Assembly (NCBI GenBank): GCA_021811435.1
Contig: JAJZOR010000002.1
Coordinates: 62,001 to 126,000 of the forward strand
Source of the DNA: Microcaldota archaeon
GTDB taxonomy: Archaea > Micrarchaeota > Micrarchaeia > Micrarchaeales > Micrarchaeaceae
Direction of reading: 5' to 3'
DNA length: 64,000 nucleotides
Positions 36,469 through 54,493 of this stretch are shown here, one piece after another; position 1 is the stretch's first letter, and each line of letters opens with the position of its first letter. A model generated the notes under the pieces. That model searched no databases. It was not told the origin of the DNA and saw nothing but the letters and a program-made list of their open reading frames with translations. Made by a program: the position numbers and the translations under genes.

Positions 36469-36541
36469 GGGGAGTTACGCTAACCTGGCAGACTTCCAGC
36501 CTTGGGCGCTGGATATCCGAGTTCAAATCTCGGACTCCCCA
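36469..36541 (+). tRNA. tRNA-Pro (TGG anticodon), integration target
   Basis: 73 nt. Acceptor GGGGAGT/ACTCCCC, anticodon stem CCAGC/GCTGG around CTTGGGC (anticodon TGG), T arm CCGAG-TTCAAAT-CTCGG and discriminator A. The D stem is weak, with two poor pairs. Its 3' part, from 36482, is repeated exactly at 45537, marking it as the attachment site of the downstream element. Confidence 0.92.
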
Positions 36542-36543
36542 CT
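36482..36543 (+). repeat. attL, 62-bp att core within tRNA-Pro
   Basis: From AACCTGG in the D loop of the tRNA to CCCCACT just past the discriminator. It is identical to 45537-45598; the bases flanking both copies differ. This copy keeps the intact tRNA. Confidence 0.93.
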
Positions 36544-37434
36544 GACGACAAATCGACGACAAAATCGGTGTTCAGACACGAGCCTTGTCGAGGGAGCGAA
36601 GCAGACGAAGGAGCGGAGAAAGCTCGAAAACCGGAGCTCGAAAGGCTGCGCAGCGAACTCGCGCATCTGCTTCCCAGGATGGCCAAGCACGAGATAGAAG
36701 AACTGACAACGCAGATAAGGCAGGTCTACTTCAAGCGCTTCCACAAGAGGAAGACGCCGAAGTACGGCTCGCTGAACAAGGGATTCACGAGCCAGGAGTT
36801 GCAGGCGTTCTTCCGAGTCATAGATGACGAGCGTCTCAAGTTGCTCTTTGCTTACCAGTCACAGCTGGGGTTAAGGATCGGCGAAGTTTGCAGGCTGCAC
36901 CTGGGCAGCATCAACTTCAAGACTAGGGAATTGACCCTCAAGACCGAAAAGGCAAGAGTAACGGACTCGATGATCATACCTGCGCCGCTCTTCGCTGATA
37001 CCATAACCTTCATAAGAAAGTACGAAAACGAGATAGAGAAAGCCGGTGGCTACATCTTTTTCAAGCTGGCTAAAAGCAGTAGGGAGGCGCTTTTCATGGG
37101 GCCGAACTACGTTAGGGCGGCGTTCAGGCGCTACGTGATCAAAGCTGGACTGGACTTCACCTATGACATAAGCGATGAGTCAATGGAAGGCAGGGACGTC
37201 AGGAGCCTGCACAGGCTTACCACGCACAGTCTCAGGCACTACGCGATAACCAACTTCTCCAAGACAACGAATGGCAACGTGGTGCTTACCTGCCGGTTCG
37301 CCAGGCACGCCAGCCCGGAGACCACCATGACGTACATAAACACTAGCAAGGAGGAGTTGTACGATGGCATCGAAGGGGCCGCATCTGGAATAAGCCGTAT
37401 TGAAAGCTTAAAGAGGCGTTTCGAGAAAAGATAG
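36544..37434 (+). CDS. Tyrosine recombinase, catalytic part (intC of partitioned SSV-type integrase)
   Basis: The frame is open leftward through the att core and the tRNA. Catalytic residues are Arg in LGLRIGEVCRLHL, HSLRHYAITNF (H-x-x-R), RHASPETTM and Tyr in TMTYINTS. The natural start is at 45515 at the other end: in the circular form 28 codons from there continue in frame into this segment, giving about 324 aa. While integrated, expression would need an internal start such as GTG 36568 or ATG 36679, or would be lost. The coiled N-terminal helix begins near residue 45. Confidence 0.88.
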   Translation, partial: DDKSTTKSVFRHEPCRGSEADEGAEKARKPELERLRSELAHLLPRMAKHEIEELTTQIRQVYFKRFHKRKTPKYGSLNKGFTSQELQAFFRVIDDERLKLLFAYQSQLGLRIGEVCRLHLGSINFKTRELTLKTEKARVTDSMIIPAPLFADTITFIRKYENEIEKAGGYIFFKLAKSSREALFMGPNYVRAAFRRYVIKAGLDFTYDISDESMEGRDVRSLHRLTTHSLRHYAITNFSKTTNGNVVLTCRFARHASPETTMTYINTSKEELYDGIEGAASGISRIESLKRRFEKR

Positions 37435-37479
37435 CAAACGTTTTTATATCTATTAATACAATATTAATGTGGTGTTAAT

Positions 37480-37728
37480 ATGGTTAAGGCTATAGTAAAT
37501 ATAAGCGACGAAGCAAATAGGATCATAAACATAATCAAAGCCGAATACGGTCTAAGGGACAAGTCAGAAGCGATAAATCGGATGGCGGAGGACTACGAGG
37601 AGCTGGTTTTTGAGCCCAAGGTGAAGGCTTCTTATTTGAAGAAACTTGATAGGATAAGGAAAGAGCGCACCGTTAAGGTAGGTACCATCAAGGACTTTGA
37701 AAAAAAGTACGGCTTAGATAAACCGTGA
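37480..37728 (+). CDS. DUF2683-type RelB-like antitoxin
   Basis: 82 aa. It begins MVKAIVNISDEANRIINIIK and continues YGLRDKSEAINRMAEDYE, the archaeal DUF2683 pattern with a ribbon-helix-helix-like N-terminus and a charged C-terminal toxin-binding tail. A TATA-like TTTTATATC (37441) lies about 40 bp upstream. The toxin gene that follows after 5 bp is broken, so the antitoxin is now an orphan. Confidence 0.8.
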   Translation: MVKAIVNISDEANRIINIIKAEYGLRDKSEAINRMAEDYEELVFEPKVKASYLKKLDRIRKERTVKVGTIKDFEKKYGLDKP

Positions 37729-37733
37729 GCTTT

Positions 37734-38005
37734 ATGGCAGAGCCATATAAGCTTGAGTTAAGGGAGCATGTAGCAAAGACCTTCAAGAAATTGGAAAGAA
37801 GGACAGGCGGCAGCTAATGGCGGTAAGGAAGAAGCTTGGGGAGATACTTGAGGATCCGGAAAGATTCAAGCCTCTGCATCCGCCAATGCAAGGTTTGCGC
37901 CGGGTCCACATAATGAAGAGCTTCGTACTTACTTATTCCATCGACAGAGGAACGCATACCGTGATTGTTTAGGACTACGCCCATCATGACGAGGTTTACG
38001 GATAG
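37734..38005 (+). pseudogene. RelE-family toxin pseudogene (frameshift and nonsense)
   Basis: It begins MAEPYKLELREHVAKTFKKLER, then shifts frame near 37800 (a run GAAAGAAGG appears one A short) and continues DRRQLMAVRKKLGEILEDPE, RFKPLHPPMQGLRRVHI and SFVLTYSIDR. A TAG replaces a codon that is normally Glu before DYAHHDEVYG. The RelE fold residues (RRVHI, SFVLTY) are recognisable. Two independent lesions indicate real inactivation. It pairs with the intact upstream antitoxin. Confidence 0.85.
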
Positions 38006-38123
38006 ATACCCATGCCTTTATAATCAGCCAGGCCATGGGGCTCAAAGCCAGAATCTTCAAGCAGACTAAGGCTTCCAGGAACGCTCCAAACAGGCCAAAA
38101 TAGCGAAAACCAAAAAGATGGTT

Positions 38124-38450
38124 TTTACTTCACATGCCTTGGCAAAACTTCGAAACCATGTGAAGTAAACGCTAGACGACAAGAAAAAACGCCAGAGTTT
38201 TTGTCGACGAGCTTACTTCCCATCAAAGAGAGGCAGTTTCAGGTGAAGAAACCATGTGAAGTACGCAAAGTCAAAAATATGGATTTTACTTTATCTGGTT
38301 CACAACTTTATCTGATTCCGCGACTTTACCTGATTTTAGAAAACAGATAAAGTTGGACTTCCGATGACAAGGCCAAAAAGGCGGTTTTCCTGTCGTCGAG
38401 CGACTTTACATTGGTAATATACCGCACTCAGATACAGAAACAGATAAAGT
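38124..38450. repeat. Iteron-like array of ACTTYAYMTG decamers
   Basis: ACTTCACATG at 38127 and its complement at 38157 and 38253; ACTTTATCTG at 38288 and 38305, ACTTTACCTG at 38323, and complements CAGATAAAGT at 38344 and 38441. The three middle copies are spaced 17-18 bp. 38124-38136 and 38157-38169 form a perfect 13-bp inverted repeat. All share ACTTYAYMTG. Such arrays typically bind replication-initiation, partition or repressor proteins. Confidence 0.75.
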
Positions 38451-38500
38451 CGCCCTGCGCAGCTTCGCAGCCTCTGGGGCTGCTCGCTGCTGCGGGCGAC

Positions 38501-38745
38501 CAAACCTTCTTTCCGGAAAGAAGGTTTGCCAAGAAAACGCAGTTTTTGGGCTTAGCCCGCTAAGCCCAGAGCCGATTTCGTCCCCCACCCGAAATCGGCC
38601 CCCAGGCTGCGTTTGCCCCCACCCAAACGCAGCCGCTTAAGCCCCAGCTAGGCGCCTTCGGTTGCGAAGGCTAGCTCAGCTTGCAGGTACCTTATACTGC
38701 CTAGATGGCTAGGCTTGCAGCGTGTTGACGCGTTAGCCCCACGTG
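38501..38745. repeat. Cluster of perfect hairpins with conserved module
   Basis: In order: a 28-bp perfect palindrome (38501-38528); GGGCTTAG/CTAAGCCC (38548-38567); GCCGATTTCG/CGAAATCGGC with a C-rich loop (38571-38599); an 11-bp stem GGCTGCGTTTG with loop CCCCCACC (38605-38634); and AGCTAG/CTAGCT plus CCTTCG/CGAAGG (38646-38676). On the minus strand the loops are G-rich. The block 38697-38745 (CACGTGGGG...CTGCAAGCCTAGC on the minus strand) and the fourth hairpin recur at 53226-53303 in the tRNA-Leu element. Confidence 0.85.
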
Positions 38746-38820
38746 AAATCCGAAGGATGAACGTGCTGGGCGTGGCTAAAGGAGAGTATTTAAAGTTTTG
38801 ATCCATAAGCTACGTAAAAG

Positions 38821-39771
38821 ATGAAAAGGATAAGCGGTTATTCTATGTCAAATAATTGGATGCAGATGCTTAATCAATTCGTTCTGCAATCGGATACCAG
38901 GAGCTTTAAATTATCTGCTTATCCTAAGGAATGGAGCGGGTTGAAATTAAAAATATCTTTCGGACAGGGCCGACCGGCACGGATACCCTGGATAGCGTTC
39001 ATAGCGCCTGAAATGCAAGTTAGCAGGGGCTATTACCCGGTTTATCTTTATTATAAAGAATTAGAGACATTGATACTGGCTTATGGGATAAGCGAAACTG
39101 CGGAATTTGATAAGAGCTGGCCGGCTGAAATATCGACATCGGCGCAGACCATTTCCGCTTACTTTAATAAAGATGTTCCGAGATATGGCGATTCTTTTAT
39201 TTTCAAAGCGTATAAAATAGGTAAAGATAACGGCAATGTACATTATACATACGCTGATACCGGGCAGGAGGCGACTGAGAAGGATTTGGAATCAAACCTA
39301 AACACTATTTTGGAGTACTATAAGCGGATTGTATCATCACCTAATTCTGCGTCTTCGCAGATAGAAAGTCAGGGAAGATTTTATATGGAGAAAACGCTTG
39401 AGAACTTTATTATTGAAAACTGGGAGACAACGGAATTTTGTAAAAATTACGATTTAATAATAGAAGACGGAGATATAGTAAGCCAACAATATCCAACGGA
39501 CATAGGACCTATAGATATTTTAGCGCAAGATAAGAAAAGTAAAAGTTTTGTTGTAATTGAACTCAAAAAGAATCAAACGAGTGATGATACCGTAGGCCAG
39601 ATCGCTCGTTATATGGGATGGATAAAAGAGAAGAAAGGGGATAACAACGTTAAAGGAATAATAATAGCCGGAGCTTATGATCAAAAGCTTGACTACGCGC
39701 TAAAAATGATTCCGAATGTAGAAGTTTTCTTATACGAAGTGAATTTTAAGCTAAGGGAATTTAAAAGGTAA
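38821..39771 (+). CDS. McrB-N (DUF3578)-like domain fused to NucS/DUF91-type nuclease
   Basis: 316 aa. Residues about 20-110 (ISFGQGRPARIPWIAF...GYYPVYLYYKELETLIL) match the McrB N-terminal domain pattern (GqG..a.iPWIa / GyYvVyLf), a DNA-reading module in some modification-dependent enzymes. Residues about 190-316 resemble the NucS/DUF91 nuclease domain: PTDIGPIDILAQDKKS, FVVIELKKNQTSDDTVGQI, RYMGWIKEKKG. The D...E-x-K catalytic set is present. A likely restriction nuclease; the target modification is unknown. AT-rich, promoter TATTTAAAG. Confidence 0.75.
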   Translation: MKRISGYSMSNNWMQMLNQFVLQSDTRSFKLSAYPKEWSGLKLKISFGQGRPARIPWIAFIAPEMQVSRGYYPVYLYYKELETLILAYGISETAEFDKSWPAEISTSAQTISAYFNKDVPRYGDSFIFKAYKIGKDNGNVHYTYADTGQEATEKDLESNLNTILEYYKRIVSSPNSASSQIESQGRFYMEKTLENFIIENWETTEFCKNYDLIIEDGDIVSQQYPTDIGPIDILAQDKKSKSFVVIELKKNQTSDDTVGQIARYMGWIKEKKGDNNVKGIIIAGAYDQKLDYALKMIPNVEVFLYEVNFKLREFKR

Positions 39772-39867
39772 TATTATTATAGGAAATTGGACGGCTATAA
39801 GTACATTGTTAGGTATAATAAGTAAATCCGAAAGTTAAATAGAGTATAAGAGTTAATAGCGGTAACT

Positions 39868-41238
39868 ATGGACAGCTTTACCAAAAATATGGTAGTGGAT
39901 AGCTCATGGTCTTTTAGTGATTTGACCAAGAAAGAAACTAGCTATGCGAGCCATGGATACCATAAATATCCCGCTAAATTTATACCACAACTTGTAAAGC
40001 GCCTTATCCTCGAATATTCGAGAGAAGGCGACCTTGTCCTTGATCCATTCGGTGGCTGCGGTACTACCTTGGTTGAGGCCAAACTCAATAATAGGAACAG
40101 TATAAGCATAGATGTTAATGATGCTGCTATTTTGATAGCGTCTGCCAAGGCAGAGGCGATAGACCCTGCGATTTTAGAGACTAATAATAAATTGATTTTA
40201 GAACGGATAGCTAAAAGTAATGACCATAAAGATTATTACGCAAATGCAAATAGTAGATTAAAATATTGGTTCAAAAGAAAACAGTTTAATAAATTGTTTA
40301 AAATTTACAATGAAATCCAGAGGGAATCCGATAAAAATATAAAGACATTTTATAACTGTTGCTTCTCAGATATCCTAAAAAACTGTTCTAAGTGGTATTC
40401 AAAAAGTATAAAGCCTCAGCGTGATTCTAGCAAAAAAGACGTGGAGCCGGCGCACGCATTTATTGAGCATTTGAATTACATGACAAAGCAGAACTTGGAA
40501 TATTATAATTTATTAGATAAGTCCATAAACATCGTTGAATCCTCAGTAAAAAAGGCTGATGCTAGGAAGACCATGCTGCCTAAAAATTCTGTCGATTTGA
40601 TAATAACATCACCTCCATACGCTATATCTTATGAATATGCAGATATTCACCAACTTTCTCTTCTTTGGTTTGGCTCAACTAAAAACATAGCCGGAATTAG
40701 AAAAGATTACATTGGTACTGCATCAAAAAGAAAAGCCATAAAAAGCGCTCGAATACGCAGTACCAGAGGACTTAATACTATAAAATCTCTTGAAAGGCTT
40801 GATACTGGTCTAGCTAACCAGATAGCTAACTATATTGTAGATCTGGATCTTACTTTTAGAGAGATGCACCGTGTATTAAAGCATGGCAAAAAAATGTGCA
40901 TAATACTCGGAGATACCAGATATTTAGGAATAAAAATACCCAATACCGATATGGCCATTGAATTAATAAATAATGCGGGTTTTAATATAAATAAAGTGAT
41001 AAAGAGGAAAATTTGTTCTAAGATATTCACGCCATATAGAGATTCTACGGGCAAATTCTCAGATGGTGAAAGTGGCAAGAAAAGGAGAATTTATCAATAT
41101 GAATACATAATAATAGCTAAAAAGAAATTGCTTTTAATGGATTGCGGGGTGCGATTCTTTACATATATTTATAATAAATTTCTAATTAGTTTGCAAGAAG
41201 CAGGTAACTTGGCACTTTGGGATAAATATGACAATTGA
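39868..41238 (+). CDS. Site-specific DNA methyltransferase (N6-adenine or N4-cytosine)
   Basis: 456 aa. The AdoMet motif I region LDPFGGCGTTLVEA comes first (near residue 60), after HGYHKYPAKFIPQL; the catalytic motif IV TSPPYA is near residue 252. The long insert between them probably holds target recognition. The SPPY form is common in N4-cytosine enzymes but does not settle the base. It overlaps the GHKL gene by 11 bp, so the two are translationally coupled, as in restriction-modification operons. Confidence 0.88.
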   Translation: MDSFTKNMVVDSSWSFSDLTKKETSYASHGYHKYPAKFIPQLVKRLILEYSREGDLVLDPFGGCGTTLVEAKLNNRNSISIDVNDAAILIASAKAEAIDPAILETNNKLILERIAKSNDHKDYYANANSRLKYWFKRKQFNKLFKIYNEIQRESDKNIKTFYNCCFSDILKNCSKWYSKSIKPQRDSSKKDVEPAHAFIEHLNYMTKQNLEYYNLLDKSINIVESSVKKADARKTMLPKNSVDLIITSPPYAISYEYADIHQLSLLWFGSTKNIAGIRKDYIGTASKRKAIKSARIRSTRGLNTIKSLERLDTGLANQIANYIVDLDLTFREMHRVLKHGKKMCIILGDTRYLGIKIPNTDMAIELINNAGFNINKVIKRKICSKIFTPYRDSTGKFSDGESGKKRRIYQYEYIIIAKKKLLLMDCGVRFFTYIYNKFLISLQEAGNLALWDKYDN

Positions 41239-43729
41239 AGATTCAGGGAAAGAAATAGATAAAATTAATGTTCACTTAAGTTACAGGATTATTGAGTTAT
41301 TCTCAAAGGGATTATATTCTAGCCCAAATAAGGCATTTGAAGAATTAGTTTGCAATGCTTATGACGCCCTTGCAGATAAGGTAGCAATTTATGTACCTAG
41401 CGATACCTCGACGTCTGATGCAACTATGTGGATATGTGATAATGGTGAGAGCCTAGATGAAAATGGTTTAAAAGAACTTTGGAGAATAGGAGAATCGAGC
41501 AGGCGTGAGGGCGATGAATTAAAGAAAGCTAGGATACCGATAGGAAAATTTGGTATAGGTAAACTAGCGACGTATATTTTAGCAAGGAAATTAACACATA
41601 TCTGCAAAAAAGATGGGCGCTATCTTGCAGTAACCATGGATTATGGTAGGATTCCTACAGTAGCTTCAAACAATCCACTTATTTTAAGTGAACGCGAATT
41701 AACGGAGAAAGAAACTATAGATTTACTGTCCCCATTAATAAATAAGTATAAAACGAATTTCTTAAATTTTAATTTGTGGGGTGCGAATGCAGAAAAATCA
41801 TGGACATTCGCTATAATGTCGGATTTAACCACAAAAGCAAGCGAACTAAAACTAGGCAGACTGAGCTGGGTTTTAAGCACATCTTTACCATTAAGTCCTG
41901 CATTTAAGTTATTCTTCAATGGACAGGATTTGGAATCAAGCAAGATAAAAGAAAAAATCAAGAATACATGGATAATCGGCCAAAATGATTTAATTGCTAC
42001 TAAATTTAACGATTACAAGGAGGGAACTTACTTAGGTATGCCGTGTGTAAATTTACCACATCTGGAAAATGTCTACGGGCAAATTGATTTATATGAAGAT
42101 TCATTGCTTAAAGGAAAAGCAAGCGAGCATGGTAGAAGCCACGGAATATTTTTGATGATAAGAGGCAGGTTAATAAATCTTGATGATCCCCTTTTGGGCA
42201 TGTCTCCATTATCACATGGGGTTTTTAATAGAGTTAGGATAGTGATTCATGCAGACGGCTTAGATAGCTATTTATCATCGACTAGAGAGGCGGTTCAAGA
42301 GTCTAACGCACTTATCGATCTGCGACATTATATTCAAAGAAAATTCGAAGAAGTAAAAGAGTATTATTTCAATCAACTCAACAACGAAGCACTAGCAAAA
42401 AGCGCATCGTATAAGGTCTCGCAAACATCTACGGCGATGTCAAGGCAGCCTCTGGTCACCGTTGCTAAAAAATTCTTGAATGAAGAGATAGAGGCACCAT
42501 TCTTAATTGAAATACCGAATAGACTAACTGAGCCTCAGAAAGGAGTTTTGATATCCAGACTTGAAGAGGATGTGACTAGTGAAAAGGGCATAATAAAAGA
42601 CGTAATAATGCAAGCAGTTGATATCGACGCGCCAATTGCTAAATTGGATATGGAAACAGGACAAGTAAAAATCAATATTTTACACCCATTTTTCGTAAAT
42701 TTTATAAGTGAATTTGGGGGTTCGACTTTGCCATTTGAGCTAATAGCTATAACTGAGATACTAACCGAGGCTTTAATGATTGAAAACGAGATACCGCAAG
42801 AAAAAGTAACAGATATAATGTCTTCAAGAGATAAATTTCTTAGGCAGTTAGTATTTAGTGATAGACCGAAGGCGCCGGCAGTTGCACAATTAATAAAAGA
42901 GGCAATTGCAGATCCAACCGGGCTTGAAAAGGCAGTCGCATACGCATTCAATTCCTTAGGATTTGAAACTACACCAATTGGAGGAAAGGGAAAACCTGAT
43001 GGAAAAGCGGTGGCATGTATAGGGCTAACCGGGTCAGGCGGCACAAAAAGGGATTATTCAGTGCTTTACGAAGCAAAAAGCACCTCTAATAGTACAGTTA
43101 GCGCAAAAGATTTGAATATTGCTGGTGTAGTGAGACACAGAACAGATTATGGCGCGGACTATTCTGTTATTGTTGCAATAGATTTTGATGGATCGATGGA
43201 TGATAATTCTGCCGCGTCAAAAGAGGCGAGAGCCCAGAAAGTTTCATTGATTAGAGCGAAGGATTTGATAGCACTGGTACTTTTAGCATCACCAAAAAAG
43301 CTCGGGTTCTTGGAATTTAAGGACTTATTTGCAAATAATTTTACAGTTATAGAAACATCTAAATGGATTAATGATTTAAATAAAAAAACTGTAGATATAG
43401 GCCCTATAAGAGAGGTACTTGAGGTAACATTGAAGTTACAAAAAAGCGATATGGAACCACCAGATTTAAGTGGATTAAGACATAATAGTAGCGTCTTAAA
43501 TAAATATTCAAAAGATGACTTGCGTTCTTTGATTCAAAGCGTTAATAGATTAGTCGGAAACTTAATTTCATTGGATGGCGAGAAGGTCAGCATACAATCT
43601 TCTCCAGACAGAATAATGGATTTATTACAAACTACCGTGACAAGGGAGATACCCCCAGAATATACGGAGTTGTATATAAAGACATTCAGCGATACTATAC
43701 CAAAGAATAAAAAACCCGATGAAAAATAA
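41228..43729 (+). CDS. GHKL (MutL/Hsp90-like) ATPase fused to PD-(D/E)XK nuclease domain
   Basis: 833 aa. Bergerat-fold motifs: EELVCNAYDAL (residues about 38-48), CDNGESLDENGL (about 70) and GKFGIGKLATY (about 105). Near residues 564-640 a restriction-like domain appears: LEKAVAYAFNSLGFET, KPDGKA (Asp about 590), LYEAKST (E-x-K about 615-617), then IAGVVRHRTDYGADYSVIV. A helical C-terminus follows. GHKL ATPases related to MutL/MORC have been predicted in restriction-modification systems. It probably acts as the ATP-dependent restriction partner of the methyltransferase. Confidence 0.82.
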   Translation: MTIEDSGKEIDKINVHLSYRIIELFSKGLYSSPNKAFEELVCNAYDALADKVAIYVPSDTSTSDATMWICDNGESLDENGLKELWRIGESSRREGDELKKARIPIGKFGIGKLATYILARKLTHICKKDGRYLAVTMDYGRIPTVASNNPLILSERELTEKETIDLLSPLINKYKTNFLNFNLWGANAEKSWTFAIMSDLTTKASELKLGRLSWVLSTSLPLSPAFKLFFNGQDLESSKIKEKIKNTWIIGQNDLIATKFNDYKEGTYLGMPCVNLPHLENVYGQIDLYEDSLLKGKASEHGRSHGIFLMIRGRLINLDDPLLGMSPLSHGVFNRVRIVIHADGLDSYLSSTREAVQESNALIDLRHYIQRKFEEVKEYYFNQLNNEALAKSASYKVSQTSTAMSRQPLVTVAKKFLNEEIEAPFLIEIPNRLTEPQKGVLISRLEEDVTSEKGIIKDVIMQAVDIDAPIAKLDMETGQVKINILHPFFVNFISEFGGSTLPFELIAITEILTEALMIENEIPQEKVTDIMSSRDKFLRQLVFSDRPKAPAVAQLIKEAIADPTGLEKAVAYAFNSLGFETTPIGGKGKPDGKAVACIGLTGSGGTKRDYSVLYEAKSTSNSTVSAKDLNIAGVVRHRTDYGADYSVIVAIDFDGSMDDNSAASKEARAQKVSLIRAKDLIALVLLASPKKLGFLEFKDLFANNFTVIETSKWINDLNKKTVDIGPIREVLEVTLKLQKSDMEPPDLSGLRHNSSVLNKYSKDDLRSLIQSVNRLVGNLISLDGEKVSIQSSPDRIMDLLQTTVTREIPPEYTELYIKTFSDTIPKNKKPDEK

Positions 43730-43862
43730 TTTACTTGGCTATTTGATAAGGACTCCTTAAGCTACTGTTCGGAACTAGCCATGTCCGAACGATATGTGCT
43801 TATATGTCCTATAGCGGCGATTTAAGATCATTCATAAATTCTTTTCTATTCCAGATCGAATC

Positions 43863-44099
43863 ATGAAATTGGATAAGTATTACGTAGTAACCGCAGTACA
43901 CCCAAATCTATGTTTTATAGTAGAGCGTAAGATTTTTACTACCAAGAAAGAGGCTCTTTCATACGCTAGAAGCCTGGCAAAAGAAACATTTTATGAGATA
44001 GATGTTACATCCGATAAAGGTAGGATAGGTTCAGCAAACTTATATTGGTTGCCCAGAGCGGGCGTATTGTTTACCGAGCCCGAATTAATTGATCCTTGA
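43863..44099 (+). CDS. Small hypothetical protein of the element
   Basis: 78 aa, starting MKLDKYYVVTAVHPNLCFIV and ending FTEPELIDP. It looks like a compact alpha/beta protein (KKEALSYARSLAKETFYEI helix). No family recognised. It is the first of three short same-strand genes between the GHKL gene and the DpnI-like gene; the next start overlaps or closely follows it. Confidence 0.55.
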   Translation: MKLDKYYVVTAVHPNLCFIVERKIFTTKKEALSYARSLAKETFYEIDVTSDKGRIGSANLYWLPRAGVLFTEPELIDP

Positions 44100-44118
44100 A
44101 TACCGCTTAGGTGTACCT

Positions 44119-44274
44119 ATGGAAGCATTGACAAAAAAAGAAGCCAGAGCAATAGTGAAATATGTTGTAAAGTTGGAGGAGCGCTTAGATAAATTTGGGC
44201 TACAATATCCAACTAAAGGTATGGCTGCAAGCAAAAGCATTGAAAAGCTAATAAAATTTGTGTATAATCCTTAG
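44119..44274 (+). CDS. Small hypothetical protein of the element
   Basis: 51 aa from ATG 44119 (MEALTKKEARAIVKYVVKLE); a start at 44089 overlapping the previous gene is possible. Mostly helical and basic (KYVVKLEERLDKFG, KSIEKLIKFVYNP). Unknown function; it might be a small DNA- or protein-binding factor of the element. Confidence 0.45.
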   Translation: MEALTKKEARAIVKYVVKLEERLDKFGLQYPTKGMAASKSIEKLIKFVYNP

Positions 44275-44304
44275 AACAATTGGGCTACATACGAGGAGGA
44301 TAAA

Positions 44305-44493
44305 ATGGAAATAAGCAAAAAGGAAATAAAGGAGCTACGCAATTACTGCGCTAAAATGGCAAAAGAAGCTGGAAAGAAGTCTGGCAAGTATTTCAACATG
44401 GCGAAGAACGACTTAGTAGAAAACTATTACGAAGGCCAGTCAGAAGCTTACGAAGATGTCAAGAAAAAATTAGAATTGCTTGGAGGCAGCTAA
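44305..44493 (+). CDS. Small hypothetical helical protein of the element
   Basis: 62 aa with a strong SD site GAGGAGGA 7 nt before ATG 44305. Sequence is charged and helical (ELRNYCAKMAKEAGKKSGKYF, then YEGQSEAYEDVKKKLELLGG). No family recognised. The SD quality argues that it is a real gene. Confidence 0.6.
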   Translation: MEISKKEIKELRNYCAKMAKEAGKKSGKYFNMAKNDLVENYYEGQSEAYEDVKKKLELLGGS

Positions 44494-44536
44494 GAGGTAA
44501 GAAACTATATAAGGGTTCTAATCCTAATCTGTCTCT

Positions 44537-45352
44537 ATGGATCTTGATTTATCTCACTATTATAAGCAAGTAATGGCTTCGTACAAGAGCCCATCACAGT
44601 TGGCTAGAAAAGTGACAGAAAAATGGGCCAGTGATAATTTGTATTGTCCGAAATGCGGACGAAGCCTGAATCAATGGTCCACCAATACGCCAGTCTATGA
44701 TTTTTATTGCGGCCATTCGGATGAACGAATTATAATAGTTCCTGAGCATTTGCCAAACAACATCGAAAATTTTCAGTTAAAAAGTCAAAAGCACCAATTT
44801 TCCAATTATGTACTTGGTGGTGCATATAGGCCCATGGTAGCTAGCCTAAATGCAGGCAGGCACCCATCGTTAATGCTCTTGTATTATCATCAACAGAAAT
44901 TTGAGGTAGAAGACGTAACACTAATCCATAGGCTATCGATTACGCTAAGTTGCATAAAGGCGAGGAAACCGTTAAGTTCGCAAGCAAGGCGCAGAGGATG
45001 GCAAGGTTGCGTCATACTCCTAGATCAAATCCCTGCGGCGGGTAGAATCGAAGTCGTAGAAAATGGCAATATTTTAGAAAAAGCTGCCGTCATAAAGAGC
45101 TGGAATGGTGTTACGAAAATACTACAAGGCGACCTTACGCAAAGAGGATGGATAGCAGATATGATGAGGTGCATTGACAGACTACCAGCAAATTTTACCC
45201 TTTCTGATGCATATGAGTTTGAAACAGAATTGGCCAAGCTTCATCCTGAAAACATGCACGTAAGACCAAAAATAAGGCAGCAACTACAAGTACTGCGAGA
45301 TCGTGGTTACATCCGATTTATTAAACCAGGACGATATCAAAAGATAATCTAG
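44537..45352 (+). CDS. DpnI-like methyl-directed restriction endonuclease, altered active site
   Basis: 271 aa with similarity to DpnI along its whole length: QLARKVTEKW, YCPKCGRSLNQW, VYDFYC, LKSQKHQFSNYVLGGAY, RKPLSSQARRRGWQGCVILL, TQRGWIADMMRCID, and the C-terminal winged helix IRQQLQVLRDRGYI. DpnI cuts G-m6A-TC. Here the catalytic set reads D55...Q80-x-K82 where DpnI has D...E-x-K. One zinc-finger Cys (after C58) is gone, and about 15 extra residues (near 62-76) separate the finger from the strand. Activity is therefore uncertain. Last cargo gene before attR. Confidence 0.85.
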   Translation: MDLDLSHYYKQVMASYKSPSQLARKVTEKWASDNLYCPKCGRSLNQWSTNTPVYDFYCGHSDERIIIVPEHLPNNIENFQLKSQKHQFSNYVLGGAYRPMVASLNAGRHPSLMLLYYHQQKFEVEDVTLIHRLSITLSCIKARKPLSSQARRRGWQGCVILLDQIPAAGRIEVVENGNILEKAAVIKSWNGVTKILQGDLTQRGWIADMMRCIDRLPANFTLSDAYEFETELAKLHPENMHVRPKIRQQLQVLRDRGYIRFIKPGRYQKII

Positions 45353-45514
45353 GTGTTCAGGGCCGCATGGTTTCGCACAGTAGTTTTTATAAAACCACAG
45401 TGCGCGGGGACATGCGTTTCTGAACACCGAACGCTTTTATACCGTAGAAGCGTAAGATCATGTGTTCGAAAACCCGGGAATTTTGCTTGTACGCTAAAAT
45501 GCTGAGGTGCTAAG

Positions 45515-45625
45515 ATGGAGCTAGAAATCGACGACAAACCTGGCAGACTTCCAGCCTTGGGCGCTGGATATCCGAGTTCAAATCTCGGACTCCCCACTTT
45601 GGCATGGGGATTGACGTTCACATAA
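45515..45625 (+). CDS. Integrase N-terminal fragment (intN of partitioned SSV-type integrase)
   Basis: ATG 45515 follows the SD site GAGGTG (45503-45508). The frame MELEIDDKPGRLPALGAG runs through the att core, then leaves the element and stops at 45625. In the circular form the same frame continues from the core into 36544, joining the catalytic part at 37434. The codon phase matches exactly in both copies. This fragment is the diagnostic leftover of SSV-type integration into the integrase gene. Confidence 0.85.
   Translation: MELEIDDKPGRLPALGAGYPSSNLGLPTLAWGLTFT
45537..45598 (+). repeat. attR, 62-bp att core (tRNA-Pro 3' part)
   Basis: Identical to 36482-36543. It lacks the tRNA 5' acceptor strand, so it is not a functional tRNA. 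GACGACAAA precedes it here and follows the core at attL, so the att core in the circle is flanked by that direct repeat. Confidence 0.93.
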
Positions 45626-52991: not shown

Positions 52992-53029
52992 TGCATGTGG
53001 TGAGATTTGAACTCACGAACCCGCTAAGG
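52992..53029 (-). repeat. Distal att-like copy of tRNA-Leu 3' part
   Basis: 31 bp (52999-53029) are identical to 54415-54445, covering the T arm and variable arm of tRNA-Leu; over 38 bp there are two mismatches in the acceptor part. The acceptor is mutated, so it is not a tRNA. It marks the far end of a small tRNA-targeted insertion. Confidence 0.8.
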
Positions 53030-53225
53030 ATTTGAGAGTGTCTTCTAGCTGTTTTACGCCCATATTTCTAGCCATATTTCACACCAAAAAACAACATAAA
53101 TTTCTAAGCCAAAGCAGGTTCATCTGAACCATAAATTATTGCTGAGCAAGGTATATAAGCGACTAGCGTTCAGACTGACATGTTTAAAAATATATAAAAT
53201 ACAGCACGTTCATAACTTCGTTCCT

Positions 53226-53303
53226 CACGTGGGCTGGCGACCCAACGGCCTGCAAGCTAGCAACCTAGCAAGCGGTTGATTTTGCGGGGGGTCAAAATCA
53301 GCC
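53226..53303 (+). repeat. Conserved module with G-loop hairpin (copy 2)
   Basis: CACGTGGG (53226-53233), CTGCAAGC-TAGC-A-CTAG (from 53250), then a 34-nt hairpin unit at 53270-53303: AAGCGG, stem TGATTTTG/CAAAATCA and loop CGGGGGGT, then GCC. It aligns without gaps to the complement of 38605-38638; the differing stem positions change as pairs. Confidence 0.8.
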
Positions 53304-53482
53304 TTAACGCCTCCATGTCCTACAAAGTAGCCGCAGCAACCGTAGCTCGCCGTGCGACATCCAAAGATGTCTTAAAGGCGGTCGTAGGCTGCTAGGTCAG
53401 AGGACTTAACATAGTAGAAACATGAAGAGTGTAGAGAAAGGCTTATATATCTATTAGGGTATATATTTATTAGGTCTTAATT

Positions 53483-54043
53483 ATGCAACTGCAGAAAGAG
53501 GTCGTTCATTATCCTACGCTTAAGACGATATTGGCTATAGAAGAAGTAGTTAAGAAGGCCAACAACCCGGTTAGCAGGAACCAGATATTGGCTCGATTGC
53601 AGACGGGTGTAATGCGTTCTACGCTGAACCTTGCGCTTGACTACATGGAGAAGCGTGGTATGGTGCTTGAAACCAAGAAGGGCTTTATTTGGACATTCAA
53701 TCCTAGCAAGAAGCTAGAGAATGTGGAAAAGGAGAGTTTGGGGGCGATGAAGGGCAAAGACTCTCCAGAGATCCTAGCCATCAAGAGAAGGATAGAGCCA
53801 ACTCTGCGTAGTAACGATGTTAAGAAAGCTGCAGTATTCGGGTCGTTTGCTACTGGAACTGCAGGAAAAAACAGTGACGTTGACATTCTCGTCGAGTTTA
53901 CAAAGCCTAAGGGATTGGGTTTCGTTTCTTTGAAACTTGCGCTCGAAAAGAAACTAAAACGGCGGGTGGACCTGCTTACGTATGCCTCAATCAACCCGCA
54001 TATAAGAGATAGTATACTCAAAGAAGCGGTGGAGATCCTATGA
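53483..54043 (+). CDS. MNT-type nucleotidyltransferase antitoxin with N-terminal HTH (MntA-like)
   Basis: 186 aa. Residues about 1-80 form a winged helix (PVSRNQILARLQTGVMRSTL, then DYMEKRGMVLETKKGF). Residues about 100-186 hold the minimal nucleotidyltransferase motif GS-x10-DVD (GSFATGTAGKNSDVDILV) plus KKLKRRVDLLTY. MntA enzymes AMPylate and silence HepT toxins; the HTH suggests autoregulation. TATA-like TATATATTTATTAGG lies upstream. It overlaps the HEPN gene by 4 bp (ATGA). Confidence 0.87.
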   Translation: MQLQKEVVHYPTLKTILAIEEVVKKANNPVSRNQILARLQTGVMRSTLNLALDYMEKRGMVLETKKGFIWTFNPSKKLENVEKESLGAMKGKDSPEILAIKRRIEPTLRSNDVKKAAVFGSFATGTAGKNSDVDILVEFTKPKGLGFVSLKLALEKKLKRRVDLLTYASINPHIRDSILKEAVEIL

Positions 54044-54378
54044 AAAAGGATCCTGAAATTTTTCTAAAGCACATTCTGGAGAGTATAGAATACATAAATG
54101 AATATATGGGATTAAAATCAGAACAGGACTTTTTGGATTCGGTGGAAACACAAGATGCAGTTATGCGACGGCTGGCGGTTATAGGAGAGGCAGCAAAAGA
54201 TATCCCAGTCCCTCTGAGAGAGAAACATGCTGGAATTGAATGGAAGGCCATAATCGGACTTAAGAATGTGCTGGTGCATGAATACTTTGGAGTAGACATT
54301 GGAGTTATATGGCATATAGTTAAGGATGACCTGCCCAACCTGAAGTCTGAGATATCGGAGATGTTAAAAGAAGTATGA
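54040..54378 (+). CDS. HEPN toxin of DUF86 type (HepT-like), catalytic Arg replaced
   Basis: 112 aa four-helix HEPN protein: YINEYMGLKSEQDFLDS, AVMRRLAVIGEAAKDIP and IIGLKNVLVHEYFGVD. The RNase motif R-x4-H-x-Y is K-x4-H-x-Y here (KNVLVHEY); the Tyr that MntA modifies is present. Lys could weaken or abolish RNase activity. It is paired with the upstream MNT gene. Confidence 0.87.
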   Translation: MKKDPEIFLKHILESIEYINEYMGLKSEQDFLDSVETQDAVMRRLAVIGEAAKDIPVPLREKHAGIEWKAIIGLKNVLVHEYFGVDIGVIWHIVKDDLPNLKSEISEMLKEV

Positions 54379-54407
54379 AAATTCGCTTTTTCGATTGGGA
54401 AAATAGA

Positions 54408-54493
54408 TGCAGGGGGTGAGATTTGAACTCACGAACCCGCTAAGGGAACGAGCCCTGAACCCGTCACATTTGACCAGTCTTTGCTACCCCTGC
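54408..54493 (-). tRNA. tRNA-Leu (CAG anticodon)
   Basis: 86 nt, class II. Acceptor GCAGGGG/CCCCTGC, D arm with TGGTC loop, anticodon stem ACGGG/CTCGT around TTCAGGG (anticodon CAG), variable arm CCC-TTAGC-GGG, T arm GTGAG-TTCAAAT-CTCAC and discriminator A. Its 3' part is duplicated at 52999, so it is the target of the small element. Confidence 0.93.

Follow-up and report, generated by a model that had tools for sequence, protein, structure and literature searches.

A small tRNA-integrated cargo element of Micrarchaeota with a split XerA-like integrase and a covarying noncoding structure

In the current study, we analyzed 64,000 nucleotides of a Micrarchaeota contig (the window) and identified a 9,055-bp interval which is very probably a site-specifically integrated, non-viral cargo element. 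Its integrase gene is split by the integration, which would also inactivate the integrase and leave it to be rescued in trans, and its cargo is exchangeable. In the predicted circular form, a single intact integrase gene would consist of a promoter, a start with about 8 codons, an att core derived from a tRNA, and the catalytic part. Integrase expressed from this circle would catalyse recombination between its own core and the 3′ half of tRNA-Pro(TGG), restoring the tRNA and breaking the integrase gene. The promoter and start would then lie at the right end, and the catalytic part, for which no start is conserved, would lie next to the tRNA. Since the gene would be broken by integration, the integrase would be switched off and excision would require a related intact integrase in trans. 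It may be, given that the N-terminal part [int(N)] is short, that its loss leaves activity, if read-through from the tRNA allows the catalytic part [int(C)] to be translated. The backbone comprises int(C), an array predicted to be a structured RNA, and int(N), with one exchangeable cargo operon (in the 9-kb element, a restriction-type defence) between the array and int(N).

An integrase gene divided between the two ends

The initial annotation had proposed that a perfect 62-bp repeat of the 3′ part of tRNA-Pro bounds 9,055 bp, and the two copies are indeed exact (36482-36543 and 45537-45598, + strand). The target, tRNA-Pro(TGG), at 36469-36542 (+; ARAGORN; Rfam tRNA, 46.9 bits), is intact at the left junction. 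Chance cannot account for an exact 62-bp match at such a distance, because chance 30-mer matches in the loci of relatives reach just 18 to 22 of 30 positions. In 19 loci, a repeat matching at no fewer than 27/30 positions lies downstream (null, at most 22). Close to both cores lies the 11-mer TCGACGACAAA (36553-36563 and 45528-45538, +), which occurs only twice in the whole window and may serve as an integrase arm site on either side. We found no clean empty tRNA-Pro site among four other genomes of the genus. One (G001) has an occupied site, and another (G004) has a rearranged site, the nearest thing to an empty one, in which 4 kb have been inserted and a remnant of int(C) is present; the remaining tRNA-Pro matches in these genomes are best read as other tRNA-Pro isoacceptors. 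The pentapeptide gene of the right flank has no clear ortholog in the same four genomes.

Joining the ends yields one integrase of 324 codons plus a stop, which agrees with the length of about 324 aa first estimated. Its catalytic part, int(C), occupies 36544-37434 (+), in an open frame that begins within the tRNA (36484). It contains a complete tyrosine recombinase domain (Phage_integrase, PF00589; E = 4e-12), whose residues R, K, HxxR, H, and Y are invariant across 39 relatives. The start codon and the first 28 integrase codons form int(N), at 45515-45598 (+). As had been proposed, the ATG at 45515 is preceded by GAGGTG and opens a frame that continues across the repeat, in phase with the left open reading frame; there is also an in-frame TGA upstream. 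When the ends are not joined, the left frame is closed by a TAA (36481), and a stop lies a few codons past the repeat in the right frame. The codon-position bias of int(N) is slight and was not counted as proof of coding.

In a single element, such agreement in phase could be a 1-in-3 coincidence; its recurrence in related elements takes it beyond chance. We read 44 integrase matches in 43 loci, most of which begin within tRNA genes. Among 17 related elements with a recognisable int(N) start at the right end, 15 have int(N) and int(C) in phase through the tRNA repeat (the exceptions being L046 and L051), a count taken over elements that share ancestry and so are not fully independent. The tRNA genes used by these elements are those for Pro, Leu, Glu, Gln, and Ala. 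The int(N) starts themselves recur, as M(E/K)LE at Pro, Glu, and Gln tRNA genes and as MARNIGVK at Leu. The integrase gene is thus really split across both ends, as the initial annotation had it, and not joined by a chance frame.

We also considered a classical arrangement (lambda- or pNOB8-like), in which int(C) would use an internal start and encode the complete functional integrase, the phase of int(N) being a coincidence. The entire conserved region does lie within int(C), and no ordered fold is predicted before about residue 14 of the modelled stretch. Possible in-frame starts occur at TTG 36502 and ATG 36679, the latter being the candidate start in this arrangement. However, no internal start is conserved (in many relatives, the early part of int(C) has no in-frame Met), the left frame closes just 5′ of the core, and the int(N) starts recur, mostly in phase, at right ends in different tRNA genes. 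We therefore regard the classical arrangement as improbable.

Class of the integrase and origin of gene splitting

The initial annotation called the element SSV-type and saw in it the SSV virus/plasmid signature, and here the layout and the integrase type part company. A true provirus or plasmid of the fusellovirus (SSV) or pT26-2/pTN3 kind, encoding a class I integrase, would have the same split layout in the 3′ half of a tRNA, and the SSV1 integration site is likewise annotated within the integrase gene. Yet all 39 relatives in our domain tally carry PF00589 and none carries PF16795, which is also absent from the entire genome; the SSV1 integrase, used as a control, matched PF16795 at E = 1.5e-61. 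No similarity to the SSV1 integrase was detected (hhalign probability, 0.3%; BLASTP E = 0.35). Correspondingly, the N-terminus of the joined protein found no match in the SSV integrase and did match the int(N) starts of its own family. Family profile and PADLOC searches recognised no capsid, packaging, replication, or DnaA-like gene in the 9-kb element, in keeping with the original description. There was no match in IMG/VR contigs, and phage and plasmid records gave only distant bacterial recombinases (among the phage records, one weak bacterial match). At the level of the family, the SSV reading is refuted, and we give it very little credence for this element.

The nearest solved sequences are archaeal XerA proteins (4a8e and 5hxy), and the first matches in a structure search were the integron integrase 2a3v (the closest solved fold) and XerA 5hxy. 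Judged by its sequence, the integrase is XerA-like (PF00589), and the label "SSV-type" is valid for its architecture only. It shares PF00589 and the R/K/HxxR/H/Y residues with class II (XerA/pNOB8-type) integrases. However, class II genes remain intact after integration (PMC8371274), whereas the present gene is split and lacks the Phage_int_SAM_1/4 N-terminal domain (PF02899/PF13495 were absent from the 39-member tally, with three weak PF14659 matches only). With the class I suicidal integrases of SSV1, pTN3, and pT26-2, the present family shares a tRNA target, an att core within the integrase gene, and an integrated form that has int(N) at one end and int(C) at the other. It differs in domain (PF00589 rather than PF16795), in having no sequence similarity to the SSV1 integrase, and in its break point, which falls after about 8 of its own codons, compared with about 63 codons from the start in SSV1 (from annotated site coordinates).

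Published suicidal integrases are all PF16795 proteins, for which a single origin has been proposed; DPANN archaea, to which the present host belongs, are absent from the hosts listed (PMC8371274). With PF00589 in all 39 relatives, and none of them carrying the PF16795 domain seen in all self-splitting archaeal integrases published so far, the gene splitting described here looks like a second, independent origin. Deep trees of integrase families have been judged unreliable (PMC8371274). If a second origin in an unrelated lineage is true, breaking one's own integrase would be a repeatedly favoured strategy, and the question of why a suicidal integrase is kept would become testable by comparison. 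We more tentatively entertain, at somewhat less than even odds, the combined proposition that suicidal integration had its second origin in a XerA-like DPANN lineage, with a fixed structured RNA marking the site of cargo exchange. The elements would then be mutually mobilised, self-silencing carriers, with integrase-less copies as their satellites. The element family is widespread and apparently undescribed; the literature that we searched contained no description of such mobile elements in Micrarchaeota.

Cargo exchange on a conserved backbone

The cargo begins with an MrcB_N plus NucS-like nuclease (38821-39771; PF12102, 2e-11; PF01939, 2e-14; PADLOC PDC-S02, 3e-49), followed by an N6/N4 DNA methyltransferase (39868-41238; PF01555, 1e-25; PADLOC MTase_II, 5e-53). 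Next is a GHKL ATPase (41228-43729; PF13589, 6e-16), which is BbrUII/HgiDII-like (NF050001, 1e-16, below its cut-off) and may contain an Mrr-type nuclease domain (PF04471, 8e-4, narrowly short of cut-off). A small protein with weak DUF2188 similarity (43863-44099; PF09954, 0.004) and a small open reading frame matching no family (44305-44493) precede a DpnI-family methyl-directed restriction enzyme (44537-45352; PF06044, 6e-58; PF17726, 3e-30; PADLOC mREase_II, 3e-67). All are on the + strand, and the searches bear out the defence-type cargo originally proposed. Between int(C) and the noncoding block are a small DUF2683-like protein (37480-37728, +; PF10884, 4e-4), possibly an antitoxin, and a ParE-like toxin fragment (37817-37972, +; PF05016, 0.0019), both weak matches below cut-off.

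In another genome, a sister element occupies the same tRNA, with the same ends and its own 76-bp repeat. Its integrase is 90% identical and its RNA block 91.7% identical, and the conserved right-end block that includes int(N) (45351-45598, +) is 97.6% identical, while its cargo is entirely different (although also defensive). The backbone has thus been kept while the cargo was replaced. No relative was found with the same interval and no repeat. The family shows how the tiny genomes of Micrarchaeota acquire and exchange genes for defence and metal resistance.

One might instead regard the interval as an immobile defence island whose repeat is a fossil. A suicidal architecture would be in keeping with this, as are the many fragmentary integrases among the relatives and the decayed members of the family (G004, and an element in the window without int(C), described below). 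However, the 62-bp repeats are perfect, the catalytic residues are intact, and the cargo is open; the sister, moreover, has its own boundaries in another genome and carries different cargo. We consider such immobility unlikely, though a serious contender.

The 9-kb element has the features by which cryptic integrated elements are recognised (an integrase and att repeats, and no viral or conjugative genes). The CIE of Thaumarchaeota are likewise small and tRNA-integrated; they carry an integrase and restriction-modification cargo, a replication gene often cannot be recognised, and one of them, NitEve-E3, has a split SSV1-like integrase (PMC6563490). The present family differs in its integrase family, its recurrent backbone, its conserved structured RNA, and the standard position of its cargo.

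A structured noncoding element and a second member of the family

Tycheposons, like other bacterial cargo elements anchored at tRNA genes, also have a tyrosine recombinase at the tRNA end and defence or fitness cargo, with an integrase that is not known to be split; we know of no comparable structured RNA in tycheposon-like elements. In the 9-kb element, a GC-rich noncoding hairpin array lies at 38436-38792 (+; folding z-score of −5.9 on the + strand and −4.8 on the − strand), and most bounded relatives have a similar GC-rich block after the integrase. It includes two hairpins with a C-rich loop, (T)CCCCCACC (38571-38634, +), which have perfect stems and compensatory changes across relatives; of the two, relatives have kept the second (38605-38634). 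Immediately before the cargo, 3′ of the integrase, is a conserved module (model R1; 38696-38786, +). Across 20 sequences, 95.8% of its cells were paired, compared with 83.8% when shuffled, and 50 double-change cells were found, compared with 14 (0/500 shuffles). This is, then, a noncoding element with covarying structure, and is predicted to be an RNA. It probably is transcribed and acts in cis or in trans for the element.

Run against 164 genomes of the order, the R1 covariance model matched 56; it matched none of the genomes searched elsewhere in the phylum. For 31 of 46 copies, there is an integrase no more than 5 kb away, and 30 of the 31 are downstream of it on the same strand (0.6 expected). 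No Rfam family exceeded its gathering score. A sub-threshold match to sX13 (29 of 50 bits) was not repeated in relatives and was dropped, and matches to mir-210 and similar families were put down to chance. As a family-wide marker, the structured RNA can be probed for function.

Alternatively, the array may work as DNA (an origin, or a site of transfer or cargo insertion, cf. integron attC). It sits at the boundary of backbone and cargo, some elements have two copies, and the closest solved integrase fold is that of an integron integrase. The C-rich-loop hairpins have Watson-Crick pairs only, in a search that allowed no others. Against this, helix 3 of R1 has frequent G-U and U-G pairs, whose counterparts on the opposite strand would be mismatched; letters of the internal loop are conserved; and the strand relative to the integrase is consistent. 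A function as DNA thus seems to us the less probable one.

The structured RNA was absent from the initial annotation, as was an integrase-less second member of the same family at 52999-54445 of the window. Its target is tRNA-Leu(CAG) (54408-54493, −; ARAGORN), with a 31-bp exact att core at the tRNA (54415-54445, −) and a far core at 52999-53029. There is no int(C), and the int(N) frame, which starts at ATG 53075 (52999-53075, −), ends at a TGA inside the core. The cargo is a nucleotidyltransferase (MNT) antitoxin with an N-terminal extension (53483-54043, +; PF01909, 7e-16) and a HepT-like (HEPN) toxin (54040-54378, +; PF01934, 3e-26). A structured RNA of the same type lies at 53190-53272 (−; R1 E = 4.6e-14), with a C-rich-loop hairpin just upstream of it, from 53277.

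Ends, cargo and a sister element

The element is bounded by an exact 62-bp direct repeat (36482-36543 and 45537-45598; spacing, 9,055 bp), the left copy of which is the 3' part of tRNA-Pro(TGG) (36469-36542), as the initial annotation had it. Each integrase half is closed by stops when the two are left apart; joining the ends yields 324 codons plus a stop from ATG 45515, in agreement with the single protein of about 324 aa proposed earlier, and its C-terminal half is a tyrosine recombinase by its match to PF00589. Besides the integrase there are a weakly matched RHH/ParE-like pair and a stretch of GC-rich noncoding DNA. The cargo genes are an MrcB_N-NucS nuclease, an N6/N4 methyltransferase, a GHKL ATPase that also matches an Mrr-type domain below threshold, two small ORFs and a DpnI-family enzyme; these matches bear out the defense-type cargo first suggested. 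GGTGTTCAG occurs at both ends (36567-36575, 45352-45369 and 45411-45428), inverted within the right-end block, and its copies are possible binding sites.

A sister element (L012, in JAKATK010000011.1) occupies the same tRNA, with an integrase 90% identical to that in the window, its own 76-bp repeat and a span of 8.0 kb. Between the two, a 180-bp block of noncoding DNA is 92% identical and the right-end block 97.6%, but their cargo differs throughout; that of the sister comprises an AIPR/AbiU-like and a ParB-like protein, a DpnII-like enzyme, a methyltransferase and one unknown. Other bounded relatives carry cation efflux with a low-molecular-weight phosphatase, a pyridine nucleotide-disulphide oxidoreductase with a redoxin, AbiEii, HNH, GmrSD with a methyltransferase, or ParA with a transposase. 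This variety makes the element a carrier of cargo in general, with defense frequent but not present in every case. In the sister, the right repeat runs 14 bp past the tRNA end into left-end element sequence (L012:17992-18005), as if it were the trace of an earlier or tandem insertion.

The divided integrase gene among relatives

The host genome (1.10 Mb in 25 contigs, 92.7% complete), whose closest named relatives are Micrarchaeota MAGs, contains 12 integrase matches, and at least one was found in 41 of 60 related genomes; the relatives compared are likewise MAGs. No XerA above the curated cutoff was found in this incomplete assembly, and all of its XerA-like matches are integrases of the element's own family.

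Because agreement in phase within a single element is a one-in-three coincidence, we read 43 integrase loci. The frames mostly start within a tRNA gene (Pro, Leu, Gln, Glu, Ala or Arg), and a mismatch-tolerant scan found the tRNA segment repeated downstream in 19 loci (27 to 30 of 30 positions identical; null, at most 22). At the right ends, the start portion, int(N), is of two types: M(E/K)LE behind GGTGCTA-type leaders at Pro, Glu and Gln sites, and MARNIGVK at Leu sites. It is in phase with the catalytic portion beside the tRNA, int(C), in 15 of the 17 loci with a recognizable start, two of which have weaker repeats (24/30); the binomial P is 4e-6 under independence, although the loci are not entirely independent. 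In the remaining two (L046 and L051), the ends do not agree in phase; these loci may be composites.

No clean empty site was found among the tRNA-Pro contexts of four other genomes of the genus. In a close relative (L071; G004:C7), some 4 kb of other DNA separates the tRNA-Pro site from a partial att core and an int(C) fragment 93% identical; this is a rearranged remnant. At L070, L071 and G004:C4:106331-108395, two family integrases adjoin in opposite directions, and some open frames exceed 420 codons.

Family assignment and a proposed loss of expression

The initial annotation called the element SSV type, a label that holds for its split layout but not for its integrase family. PF16795 was matched by none of 39 relatives and PF00589 by all 39, while the SSV1 integrase, as a positive control, matched PF16795 at 1.5e-61; neither profile comparison nor BLASTP related the window integrase to that of SSV1. 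Sequence comparison and a predicted structure (mean pLDDT, 78.9) instead point to XerA and the integron integrase. Integrases of this family also occur in other families of the class. According to Badel et al. (2021; PMC8371274), the archaeal PF16795 families (SSV, pTN3 and pT26-2) split their own gene and are said to have a single origin, whereas PF00589 families do not split theirs. The window family splits its gene yet belongs to PF00589, and from this assignment it looks like a second origin of gene-splitting integrases.

The position of the break also differs. In SSV1 it falls about 63 codons after the start, whereas here it follows about 8 element-coded codons, so that int(C) keeps the conserved region and catalytic residues, and what is lost is mainly the promoter, ribosome site and start codon. 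No conserved internal start was found in int(C) of family relatives. On these grounds, our working model is that integration would switch the integrase off through lost expression. By likeness to SSV2 and pTN3, for which rescue by related integrases has been reported (PMC8371274), the silenced enzyme might be rescued in the same way.

A putative structured RNA and a second element

A hairpin array (38436-38792; folding z, -5.9 on the + strand) lies 3' of the integrase, and in most elements compared such an array stands roughly 30 to 150 nt ahead of the first cargo ORF. In an alignment of its last module (38696-38786) from 20 loci, with 24 base pairs, 95.8% of cells were paired versus 83.8% in shuffled alignments, and double-change cells numbered 50 versus 14, a value reached in 0 of 500 shuffles; sliding the pairing partners abolished the covariation signal. 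Helix 3 is rich in G-U and U-G pairs, which favors a + strand RNA. No Rfam family fits it. A covariance model found 10 copies in the host genome. Within the order, 56 of 164 genomes have copies, and in a search of 301 genomes across the phylum none turned up outside this order. In genomes with both mapped, 31 of 46 copies lie near an integrase, 30 of these 31 downstream on the same strand (0.6 expected). As to its function, we rank first an RNA that regulates or maintains the element, and second a DNA signal.

The copy at 53190-53272 (- strand) led us to a second element (52999-54493, - strand), about 1.4 kb bounded by tRNA-Leu(CAG) (54408-54493) and a 31-bp exact repeat (52999-53029). Within this interval lie a HepT/MNT toxin-antitoxin pair, a copy of the structured RNA and int(N), the reading frame of which ends at a TGA inside the core; int(C) is absent. 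The second element belongs to the same family, either as a satellite or as a decayed member. In two further loci, L058 (G003:C12) and L066 (G000:C22), the RNA occurs twice at a distance of about 1 kb; in L058 the right-end att is doubled as well, which suggests tandem elements.
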